Program-made: the position numbers and the translations under genes | Assembly (NCBI GenBank): GCA_026394075.1 | Contig: JAPKYX010000292.1 | Span: forward strand, 1-47,083 | Reading direction: 5' to 3' | Source: Acidobacteriota bacterium | GTDB taxonomy: Bacteria > Acidobacteriota > Terriglobia > Bryobacterales > Bryobacteraceae | Length of the DNA stretch: 47,083 bases | The notes under the pieces: generated by a model | The model's input: only the letters and a program-made list of their open reading frames with translations | Databases searched by the model: none | What the model was told of the DNA's origin: nothing | In this document: piece after piece, positions 43,757-47,083 of the stretch | Layout: every line of letters starts with the position of its first letter | Numbering within the stretch: position 1 is the first letter of the stretch

Positions 43757-43781
43757 CCTCAGGCCAACAACCGCGCGAGAC

Positions 43782-43820
43782 AAAAAGAGCCGCTCCATTG
43801 CTGGGGCGGCTCTTTTGTTT
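43782..43820. terminator. bidirectional intrinsic terminator
   Basis: AGAGCCGCTCC (43786-43796) and GGGGCGGCTCT (43803-43813) pair over 11 bp with one G-T pair and a six-base loop. TTTTGTTTT follows on the plus strand, and AAAAA before the stem gives a T-run on the minus strand. It lies 30 bases after the M14 stop and before the end of the actin-like gene, serving both convergent genes. Confidence 0.85.
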
Positions 43821-43835: not shown

Positions 43836-44849
43836 TTACGCGCGGGCGGCTGAGGTCTGGGCGTCTTCCATGTCGGCCATGGCGGCGATCAGGGCACCCT
43901 TGGCGGTGGTGGTGAGCGGTGCGGCGGCCATGCGGATCTCCGACAGGCGCACCGGGAATTCCACTTCCATCAATGCCTTTTCGAAGCGGTCGCGGAAGCC
44001 GCGCGGCATCGCTGTGCCACCGGAGAGGACCAGCGGGATCGGGCGGCTCAGCTTGGGCAGGTTGCGCGTGTTGGTGAACGCTTCGCGAAGGCCATTGACC
44101 AGCGTCTTGATGACGTCGTCGTAGTAGACGGCCAGCACTTGGTGCAGTTTGTTCGAATAGACACCGCTCAAGTGAAAATCTTCTTCCTTGGCCAGGCGGA
44201 CGCGCGTGGCAAGGTCGCCGGTGACGGCAGCGGTGCTGGAATCGATGTAGTCGCCGGCCTTGGCCGTCGAGAAGCTGAATACGGGCATGGACAAGTAGGC
44301 GAGGCAGACGTTCACCAAGCCGCCGCCCAGGGAGACGCCGATGCCGGAGTAGTTGGTGTTTTCCATCTCGCCGTAGACCACAGCCAGGCCTTCATTGATC
44401 GGCGTGGCGCGGAAGCCCAGTTCTTCCAGCAACTGGCCGGTGGTGGCGGCATGGTAGGTGACGCCCTGGTCTTCACCCAGCGGCGCGGCCGGCACGGTGA
44501 AGAAGATGCGCTGACCGGGAGTGCGGCCGGCGAGCAGGCTCTTCAGCATTTCCTTCAAGCGGGCGCCGCTTTCGGGTTCGGACGGGTTGAGCACGCCACG
44601 GTCCATCGGACGGCGGGTCTCCATCTGCAACAGGTCGGCGAAACGGGCCGCCTCATTGCCGTGGACCAGGATCTGGCCGTTGTCCAGCGAATACGGGACG
44701 CCCTCATTGCGCAGGGCGCGCTCTGTCATCTTCGCGTACGGGATGGTGACAAAGGCATTCAGTTGCCGGGAGTAAGTAAAAGCGTCGCCATCCTTGGCGG
44801 CCAAAACCAGCCGGCTGGTGCCGACGTCGAGTCCGAGTGCGTTGTTCAT
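43836..44849 (-). CDS. actin-fold (MreB/ParM-like) ATPase, divergent
   Basis: 337 residues with the five-part actin/Hsp70 layout. ALGLDVGTSRLVLAAKDG is the phosphate-1 loop, GQRIFFTVPAAP and FRATPINEGLAVVYGEM fit the connect region, and GIGVSLGGGLVNVCLAY is the phosphate-2 loop. VLSGGTAMPRGFRDRFEKAL is the adenosine motif. The phosphate-2 loop has GVSLGGGL rather than DIGGGT, so a key Asp is replaced by Ser, and overall it is not a normal MreB. ATG 44849 directly abuts the stop of the upstream amidase gene (44850-44852), and the ribosome site GGAG lies within that gene. It probably forms a filament or regulates cell-wall enzymes, but this is inferred. Confidence 0.7.
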   Translation of the reverse strand: MNNALGLDVGTSRLVLAAKDGDAFTYSRQLNAFVTIPYAKMTERALRNEGVPYSLDNGQILVHGNEAARFADLLQMETRRPMDRGVLNPSEPESGARLKEMLKSLLAGRTPGQRIFFTVPAAPLGEDQGVTYHAATTGQLLEELGFRATPINEGLAVVYGEMENTNYSGIGVSLGGGLVNVCLAYLSMPVFSFSTAKAGDYIDSSTAAVTGDLATRVRLAKEEDFHLSGVYSNKLHQVLAVYYDDVIKTLVNGLREAFTNTRNLPKLSRPIPLVLSGGTAMPRGFRDRFEKALMEVEFPVRLSEIRMAAAPLTTTAKGALIAAMADMEDAQTSAARA

Positions 44850-46019
44850 CTAGTGAGTCTCCTTATGAGCGGTCTCAGGTTGGTTCGGCGCGGGTACATC
44901 CTGTGCCCGCGTATGTTGGTGATAGAGCTTCCGCAGCTCAGCTCTCAGCTGGGCCACAGAGATCTGCCGGCGCGAGGCTTCCGCTCGCAACCGGTCTTCT
45001 GCCGCCACGACGCCCCGCCACATGCGGGCTCCGGTCGCGGCAAAAAATGCAGGGTCATAGCCGAAGCCGTAGCGTTCCACGGCGGCCAGCGGCAGCTGGT
45101 AGTTATCCGGCAACCCAATCTCTTCAAACGGGAAGTTTCCCGCCCAATCGGTGTGCCACCCAACCCGGAAGTTGGACGGATTCACCGACACTTGCGCGTG
45201 CGTCACACAGTTGCGGGCGGCGATGCCAAACCGGTAGCGGAGCATCTCCACCAGCAGCCGCAGCGCCAGCTTCTGCGCCGGAGTAATCTCCGGATTCTCA
45301 TCCCCGGTCCGCGTGGCTGATTCCAGCGACACGGCCAAAAAGTCATCATTCAATCCGGTCCAGGTGTGCTTCTCATCACCCCACACCGAATTTCCGGCGT
45401 GATAGGCGACGTCTTCTTCAGCGACAATCCGGAAGGCCCGGCCAAAGCGGTCGATCACGTAGTGATAACCCTTCTCTTCGCGCACATAGTTCAATAGTCC
45501 ACGCGCCAGAATCTTCAGCCGCTGCGCCTTCTCTGGCTCAAACGTATCCATCTGGCTTTCGGTGGTGTGGAACACAATCCCCGTTGGTGCCGCCTTCCGC
45601 TTCTTGTTTGAAACGGTCAACGACGTATCTACCTGCAGCCCGTTGGACCAGCTTTCGAGCGTCCCCCGGGTCTCCACCAGCCAAACCTTCGTGTGAGGCG
45701 CGGCGGCATGCACCGTGCCCGAAACTACCGGTGCCACTACTGCCGGCCCTGTCGCTCCCGGTACGGCCACCGCCACCGCTTCCGGGGATTTCTCACGCTT
45801 CGCCGGGCTCCGCATCACGGTGCCCCCGAGCACAAGAGAAGCCACCACCACCGCCGCCGCCACGGGTACCCGCGCACGACGCCACCGCGAAACCTCCGGC
45901 ACCGTTTCATCGTCTCCGCGCACATTGCGCAGATAACGGAGCTTGGCCACCGGATCCGGGATCCGGTTCGCCAGCGGATCGGCCCAGCTGCGATTTACCT
46001 TTGGTGTGGGGCCTGCCAT
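44850..46019 (-). CDS. membrane-anchored N-acetylmuramoyl-L-alanine amidase (Amidase_2/PGRP type)
   Basis: 389 residues. A ~50-residue cytoplasmic head (DPVAKLRYLRNVRGDDE) precedes one membrane segment (VPVAAAVVVASLVLGGTV, ~50-67) and a Pro/Ala/Val linker. The catalytic domain (~145-330) begins PTGIVFHTTESQ, with the first zinc His, and continues KGYHYVIDRFGRAFRIV, EDVAYHAGNSVWG, DFLAVSLESA and CVTHAQVSVNPSNFRVGWHTDW, with the second His and the final Asp/His region. This is the T7-lysozyme/PGRP-type amidase family that cuts the bond between muramic acid and the stem peptide. The C-terminal tail is helical and charged. It is joined to the actin-like gene without a gap. Confidence 0.85.
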   Translation of the reverse strand: MAGPTPKVNRSWADPLANRIPDPVAKLRYLRNVRGDDETVPEVSRWRRARVPVAAAVVVASLVLGGTVMRSPAKREKSPEAVAVAVPGATGPAVVAPVVSGTVHAAAPHTKVWLVETRGTLESWSNGLQVDTSLTVSNKKRKAAPTGIVFHTTESQMDTFEPEKAQRLKILARGLLNYVREEKGYHYVIDRFGRAFRIVAEEDVAYHAGNSVWGDEKHTWTGLNDDFLAVSLESATRTGDENPEITPAQKLALRLLVEMLRYRFGIAARNCVTHAQVSVNPSNFRVGWHTDWAGNFPFEEIGLPDNYQLPLAAVERYGFGYDPAFFAATGARMWRGVVAAEDRLRAEASRRQISVAQLRAELRKLYHQHTRAQDVPAPNQPETAHKETH

Positions 46020-46324: not shown

Positions 46325-47083
46325 CTAGCGGACGACGATCTTGGCGGTGGCCTGGTTGTCGAACTCGTCGGTGACGCGGACGGCGATCGTCAATTCACCG
46401 GGCTGCGGGCGGTCGAGCAGAAGGTCGTAGGTGAGCTCACGGGAATCAGAGAGCTTCGTGGCGGGCTCCAGGGTGAGCCATTCAACGCCATTGATCGAGT
46501 ACTCGGCCTTGGAGATCCAGTTCAGCGCGTCCTTGGCCTTGAAACGCAGTTGCACGCGGCCGCCCGCGGGCTGGGCCGCCAGGTCTTCGATCACGGGCGG
46601 CGTGTTGTCGATCAGGAAGCTGGGGCTTTGGGCTGCCGCTTCCAGTGCTTGCGCGGGTGGATTGTCCGGTTGGTCGTTGGCGGTGACGCGAATGAAGTAT
46701 TCGCCGTCAGGGTAGGCGGTGAGGTCGAAGTTGACCTGCTTTTCACGCACGCGTTCCTTGATCAGCTTCCAGGTGCTTTCCGCCACGCCCTTGATCTCCA
46801 CCTTGAAGTTCAACTCGTCGCCGTTGTCGTCAGCGGCCAGCCAGCGGGCCCCGCCAGTGCCCTTGGCATAGGACATCGACGAGGAGCTGCCGGAATCGAG
46901 GCTCAACGACGGGGCACTGCTCCGGCGCGTCCGGCCGAGCGGCGGCAGCGTGATGCTGGGCGTTAGGTTCAGCGTGATCGTGTTCTGCGGAAAGCGGTAG
47001 TTCACCGGTGTGGCTTGTACTTCTTCGATGCGCGGTGCCAGATTCTTGGCCATCCAGGCAATGTCGACGCCACCCAGTTCGGG
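46325..47083 (-). CDS. C-terminal part of a large secreted beta-rich protein
   Basis: The reading frame is open to the window edge, so the N-terminus is missing; 252 residues are visible. The visible part has two or more Ig/fibronectin-like beta domains: YPDGEYFIRVTANDQPDNPP followed by FLIDNTPPVIEDLAAQ, then VQLRFKAKDALNWISKAEYS and GELTIAVRVTDEFDNQATAK at the end. The DxTPPVI and VRVTDEFDNQATA wording is common in the C-terminal beta-sandwich of bacterial propeller/NHL-type exported proteins. The start near 47083 (PELGGVDIAWMAKNLAPRIE) suggests a preceding domain. A serine-rich linker (SLDSGSSSSMSYAKGTG) precedes the domains. Not a recognised enzyme in the visible part. Confidence 0.7.
   Translation of the reverse strand, partial: PELGGVDIAWMAKNLAPRIEEVQATPVNYRFPQNTITLNLTPSITLPPLGRTRRSSAPSLSLDSGSSSSMSYAKGTGGARWLAADDNGDELNFKVEIKGVAESTWKLIKERVREKQVNFDLTAYPDGEYFIRVTANDQPDNPPAQALEAAAQSPSFLIDNTPPVIEDLAAQPAGGRVQLRFKAKDALNWISKAEYSINGVEWLTLEPATKLSDSRELTYDLLLDRPQPGELTIAVRVTDEFDNQATAKIVVR

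Follow-up and report, generated by a model that had tools for sequence, protein, structure and literature searches.

In the genome of an Acidobacteriota bacterium (Terriglobia, Bryobacteraceae; assembly GCA_026394075.1), the gene for a peptidoglycan amidase ends exactly where the gene for an actin-like protein starts. The question raised by this locus is whether the two proteins form one working unit, in which an actin-type filament would guide a cell-wall hydrolase, or are neighbours by chance. The window, that is, the whole stretch of DNA that was analysed (47,083 nucleotides), comprises positions 1-47,083 of contig JAPKYX010000292.1, and the features discussed here are the following:

44850..46019, minus strand: bitopic N-acetylmuramoyl-L-alanine amidase (predicted), 389 aa; PF01510, 1.4e-14; family profile versus the AmiD structure 2bh7, 7.5e-10
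45927..45980, minus strand: cytoplasmic tail motif of the amidase, residues 14-31, candidate volactin docking site; conserved in 39/39 amidases of volactin loci
45816..45872, minus strand: transmembrane helix, residues 50-68, the only strong hydrophobic stretch; hydropathy peak
45612..45692, minus strand: conserved periplasmic stretch WLVE...WSNGL (residues 110-136), N-terminal to the catalytic domain; mean pairwise identity 0.46
45189..45593, minus strand: catalytic domain of the Amidase_2 type; the Pfam match spans residues 143-277
44859..44864, minus strand: AAGGAG, likely volactin ribosome-binding site, within the amidase gene; by eye
43836..44849, minus strand: Volactin-family actin-like protein, 337 aa; PF25216, 2.5e-75, 254.4 bits versus a cut-off of 35
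44811..44834, minus strand: presumed phosphate-1 loop GLDVGTSR; G6, D8, G10 and T11 invariant in 47 aligned rows
44316..44339, minus strand: phosphate-2 loop GVSLGGGL, residues 171-178; of 47 rows, at least 90% have S173 and all have G175 and G177

The proteins encoded by the locus

The amidase stop codon (TAG, 44852-44850) directly abuts the volactin ATG at 44849 on the minus strand, as the sequence-only reading of this DNA had stated. Between the volactin gene and a convergent M14 peptidase gene, an inverted repeat with a T-run can be seen by eye at about 43780-43815, and it is perhaps a terminator shared by both genes. This repeat is not among the output of a terminator scan (one site, under the shuffle mean of 2.8), for which its loop is probably too long. 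Upstream of the amidase (46325-47083), a gene cut by the contig end shows weak Ig-like and PKD matches below the cut-off.

With respect to the actin-like protein, the Volactin match obtained by Pfam search covers model positions 3-321 of 321. The window protein gave no match at E<=1 with MreB_Mbl (PF06723), FtsA or ParM (the HMMER filters drop most matches above 0.1). Its scores for Salactin (15.2 bits) and Actin (11.6 bits) are both under the Pfam cut-off of 27, and that for the NCBIfam salactin model is 17.6 bits versus a cut-off of 400. Weak MreB_Mbl matches do appear in relatives, the best of them (L079) reaching 27.0 bits, which equals the cut-off, versus 269 for Volactin. A tree of the kind that had been proposed for placing the protein within the actin superfamily separates 20 volactins (18 bacterial and 2 archaeal) from five MreB rows at 100/100. 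The archaeal volactins fall with the bacterial ones; the MreB branch is very long and the root is therefore unsure. An identity as MreB, ParM or FtsA is ruled out by Pfam, and as MreB also by the tree. An AlphaFold2 model of volactin, built from 13 sequences (mean pLDDT 69.4, pTM 0.74), retrieved MamK and MreB first among solved structures in a Foldseek search (E about 1e-11; top rows 16-18% identical). Volactin and the MreB of MreBCD systems thus have the actin fold in common, but volactin constitutes a separate branch.

The altered phosphate-2 loop, GVSLGGGL, had been read as a sign that the protein is not a standard MreB, ParM or FtsA. The loop is real and the three families are indeed excluded, but such a loop is normal in Volactin. 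We take aspartate to be the usual phosphate-2 residue, here replaced by serine, and serine also occupies this position in the archaeal volactin row shown in the 47-row alignment. Since the loop is common to the aligned Volactin rows, archaeal ones included, it is not by itself a mark of novelty and was dropped as such.

A separate mreB-mreC-mreD cluster is present in the same genome (G000:C124), all three genes being over the Pfam cut-off, and the genome's own MreB reaches 488 bits versus MreB_Mbl. Thus, the case that had been set out as counter-evidence, a protein inside MreB in a genome lacking canonical mreBCD, is not the one found here, and volactin is an addition to MreB, not a replacement.

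The amidase of the window reaches 55 bits for PF01510 Amidase_2, versus a cut-off of 26. Five residues (H151, E233, H274, H289 and D291) are invariant in 38 amidase rows, H289 and D291 lying slightly beyond the Pfam match; their roles as zinc ligands or catalytic residues are presumed by analogy with AmpD. An active enzyme is probable, given that these AmpD-type residues are invariant and that, among solved structures, the family profile matches AmiD best; peptidoglycan would be what it cleaves.

Its description as a membrane-anchored peptidoglycan amidase agrees with the Pfam match and with the single strong hydrophobic stretch. A hydropathy peak is located C-terminal to the tail motif in 39/39 amidases of volactin loci, the hydrophobic helix lying 20-93 residues after the motif start. 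In terms of flanking charge, a signal of tail-inside topology, the tail side is the more positive one in 27 of these 39 proteins; the two sides are equal in 5 and the order is reversed in 7. The catalytic domain is shared with the Amidase_2 enzymes AmiD and AmpD but, unlike them, this amidase carries a cytoplasmic tail, a transmembrane anchor and a conserved stretch before the domain. AmiD is an outer-membrane lipoprotein.

Conservation of the gene pair

A scan of a genome collection with the window volactin yielded 12 loci, every one from a record whose title names Acidobacteria, Acidobacteriia or a Bryobacter group. The amidase is near volactin in all 12, adjoining it in 11 and with starts 1.1 kb apart in the other (L013). 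In a larger set of 48 volactin loci, the amidase lies within the stretch read in 39, and the next most common neighbour family in 7 when shadow frames are set aside (neighbour clusters 1, 3, 4, 5 and 7 are mostly inside volactin or amidase frames, 118 of their 123 members). The locus tree is made up of 45 de-duplicated acidobacterial volactin rows and 2 archaeal volactins. The amidase is near volactin in 38 of the 45, in tandem in 32 and divergently oriented in 6, the latter being one tree group (100/100). In two more rows the amidase is elsewhere in the genome, and five have none (L071, L076, L084, L091 and L092); L091, from the window's genome, and L092, from G017, are second, diverged volactins; in each of these two genomes a first copy is retained along with the amidase.

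Five loci were left out before counting. L003 and L004 belong to the window's genus and each has the amidase; L072, which has none, comes from the genus of L071. The other two are fragments: L032, in which the amidase occurs, and L110, an incomplete second volactin that G016 carries at the start of a contig, the 6 kb read there containing no amidase. L008, L093 and L094, 95-98% identical to kept rows, were left out of the tree too. With start codons chosen by rule, 22 of the 33 tandem loci (L008 counted) have a gap of between -32 and +15 nt separating the genes, and the other 11 one of 36 to 508 nt. The pair is therefore widely kept in Acidobacteria and not unique to this genome, which was the doubt attached to it by the sequence-only reading. 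Since volactin and the amidase remain linked across numerous families of the phylum, whereas their other neighbours vary, more than chance is involved; chance or local adjacency is ruled out by the locus counts and the tree.

Co-occurrence was also scored by genome, in a draw of 396 genomes from the phylum and in 41 genomes of relatives. In the phylum draw, with volactin defined as a match over the Pfam cut-off and the amidase as a match to the family profile at E<=1e-15, volactin is found in 21 genomes, the amidase in 18 and both in 17. Volactin is without the amidase in G102, G186, G306 and G330. The amidase is without detected volactin in G188 only, as a fragment at a contig edge in a genome 87% complete. 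Among the relatives, volactin is found in 17, the amidase in 20 and both in 17. The three relatives with an amidase and no over-cut-off volactin are G018, where volactin is cut by the contig end and scores below the cut-off, G007, where the amidase runs to the contig end, and G023. The Fisher p-values (4e-25 for the phylum draw, 8e-9 for the relatives) overstate independence because the genomes are related.

Volactin also occurs in other arrangements. The second, diverged volactin of the window's genome (G000:C109:11266-12258; L002, L091) is about 36% identical to the first and, as in L092-L094, is located soon after a CxxC zinc-ribbon-like protein with a weak, below-cut-off methyltransferase match. 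The second copies of G000, G001, G002 and G017 have no amidase alongside. These copies and the four genomes without the amidase indicate that volactin also works without it.

One tree group (97/95) has nine rows, and in six of them (L078, L085, L086, L087, L088 and L090) an HU-like domain (PF00216, 1.9e-7 to 4.7e-14) precedes volactin in frame, with no stop between them. An ATG preceded by GGAGG is present just before the volactin domain in 6/6 of these rows, so that long and short products are both possible. Members L075, L077 and L079 of the same clade show no HU domain by Pfam, nor by eye in the frames just upstream. Another fusion is found in L084 (G102), where a receiver domain is joined to volactin and followed by a gene for a MinD/ParA-type ATPase, in a genome where no amidase of this family was found. 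The archaeal volactins (L154 and L155) group with the amidase-less acidobacterial L071 (G330) at 99/99 with MreB included, the root being unsure, and this grouping may reflect transfer between domains.

The cytoplasmic tail of the amidase

All 39 amidases encoded in volactin loci carry in their tail the pattern E..A..I.DPV.RLRFLR (majority letters; only L is invariant). In 38 rows, the mean pairwise identity of the motif is 0.47, versus 0.12 before it and 0.16 after it; the corresponding values are 0.15 for the helix, 0.17 for the linker and 0.50 for the catalytic domain. The motif is nearly as conserved as the catalytic domain, amid variable surroundings. Inspection by eye shows the tail to be rich in basic and hydrophobic residues.

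A read-through fusion of amidase and volactin was modelled with AlphaFold2 from 25 rows (pTM 0.42, mean pLDDT 63.5). In an otherwise low-confidence stretch, the motif region is predicted as two helices, 10-18 and 23-34; block pLDDT values for residues 11-40 are 74, 67 and 52, and the model says nothing reliable about contact. Residues 36-108, which include the transmembrane helix and the linker, are below pLDDT 50.

The tail tracks volactin from genome to genome. A tail profile built from 30 tails, scored in the phylum draw on at most 20 candidates per genome, gives at E<=1e-5 one match each in 17 of the 396 genomes, exactly those with both volactin and the amidase, and in 19 of the 41 relatives, namely all 17 in which volactin was found, together with G018 and G007. 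Matches in the training genomes are not independent because the profile rows came from many of them; absence elsewhere is independent, within the limit of 20 candidates per genome in the phylum draw. No clear tail match was found in G102, G186, G306 or G330 (best 0.019). The amidases of G307 and G386 retain the tail motif; in both genomes they are encoded on another contig than volactin, and neither gene has the other nearby.

G023 has an amidase of the same family (L151:1594-2703) and no detected volactin, and the tail motif is absent from the three frames upstream of this amidase. This genome, a single one and 87% complete, is a possible case of natural tail loss. By eye, the start of its amidase resembles a signal peptide.

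With respect to other volactin clients bearing the same tail, none was found at E<=1e-3 beyond the amidases in the genomes profiled, apart from a partial match in G358 (7.1e-4, 16/30 positions) that was taken as noise. At this threshold there is one tail-bearing protein per genome in the phylum draw; weaker matches are many, from 0.00143 up.

Possible roles of the pair

Two characterized systems are useful for comparison. The volactin of Haloferax volcanii, the species in which volactin was named, forms dynamic filaments whose tips touch the membrane, and affects disk shape (PMC10869688). Haloferax VolA and the window protein belong to the same Pfam family, PF25216, and the altered phosphate-2 loop is common to both; relatives in four haloarchaeal plasmid records are 34-36% identical to the window protein along 96% of its length. 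Two haloarchaeal plasmid regions, in which several genes are hypothetical, show no annotated amidase. Archaea are not known to have bacterial peptidoglycan.

The second system is that of LmdC, a bitopic M23 endopeptidase encoded beside the bactofilin BacA, which binds bactofilin by its N-terminal cytoplasmic tail (PMC10945521). Both systems consist of gene neighbours encoding a cytoskeletal partner and a bitopic hydrolase with a conserved short cytoplasmic tail before one transmembrane helix. However, the filament protein is here of actin fold with nucleotide loops and not a bactofilin, the hydrolase is an amidase and not an M23 peptidase, and the tail motif is predicted to be helical whereas the LmdC tail is a β-hairpin (PMC10945521). 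Only Volactin and Amidase_2 pass the Pfam cut-offs in the pair; neither a bactofilin nor an M23 domain is found in it. By analogy, the volactin-amidase pair would most likely work like bactofilin-LmdC without being a member of that system. A filament-guided hydrolase, which had been put forward as a new kind of morphogenesis or division module, is not wholly new in kind because bactofilin-LmdC does the same (PMC10945521). An actin that guides a hydrolase through a dedicated cytoplasmic tail was not found in the literature searched.

Our judgement, held with moderate confidence, is that the amidase and volactin genes encode one module, in which the tail would dock volactin filaments and these would position wall cleavage. 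The amidase would span the inner membrane, exposing its catalytic domain to the periplasm and its short tail to the cytoplasm, where the tail motif would fold as a small helical hairpin that docks onto volactin. Volactin would form filaments that recruit and position the amidase, and peptidoglycan would be cut at the points of contact between filaments and membrane, which are probably sites of division or of shape change. Such a module would act alongside MreBCD, not instead of it. Docking is suggested because the tail tracks volactin, the pair is linked, the tail is kept when the genes are unlinked and LmdC provides a precedent. Counted against it are the 4/21 volactin genomes of the phylum draw that are without the amidase, the second volactin copies with no amidase alongside, and the amidase fragment of G188 without detected volactin.

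The same tail and linkage data would also fit an amidase that acts as the anchor and a volactin that is its client. The tail would then tie filaments to the membrane and, via the periplasmic domain, to the wall, cleavage being secondary, and the membrane contact of Haloferax filament tips (PMC10869688) is in line with this. We consider it unlikely, since the invariance of the assigned zinc and catalytic residues in 38 rows suggests that cleavage matters and volactins without the amidase exist. Slightly less probable is that both proteins act in one pathway without touching, the tail binding some other co-inherited partner, for example the surface of the membrane or a different protein involved in division or shape. 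The basic and hydrophobic character of the tail recalls that of membrane-binding helices, and the fusion model yields no interface measure. However, the tail tracks volactin and is missing along with it in G023, and no other family is beside the pair in more than 7/48 loci (shadow frames set aside), a count that concerns neighbours only. FtsEX is held to gate its hydrolase partners. A comparable role for volactin, as a nucleotide-driven switch gating the amidase through the membrane without long filaments, is the least probable of the three: the single tail-bearing protein per genome and the 22/33 tandem loci with close or overlapping genes would suit it, but the archaeal volactin studied is a filament (PMC10869688), and residues 36-108, of low pLDDT and poorly conserved, fit a tether better than a lever.

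No volactin paper naming Acidobacteria was found in the open-licence literature, and a search there for actin, amidase and Acidobacteria gave nothing on point among the ten matches listed, as judged from titles and the opening of abstracts. Volactin is a known actin family, whereas its pairing with the amidase and the tail are not met in the open-licence literature searched.

If volactin filaments do position the amidase through its tail, a wider view can tentatively be proposed, to which we give somewhat less than even weight. Acidobacteria may have coupled an actin filament system shared with haloarchaea to a peptidoglycan amidase through a dedicated docking tail, giving an actin-guided wall hydrolase whose filament protein is in some lineages fused, with an internal translation start, to an HU-like domain possibly linking the filament to the nucleoid. 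The module would be a third kind of link between cytoskeleton and wall in bacteria, in which an actin positions an amidase, beside MreB (synthesis) and bactofilin-LmdC (endopeptidase). It would also provide the little-studied volactin family with a bacterial role and a candidate docking motif, and would be relevant to the way in which a filament that archaea also possess came to act on the cell wall.
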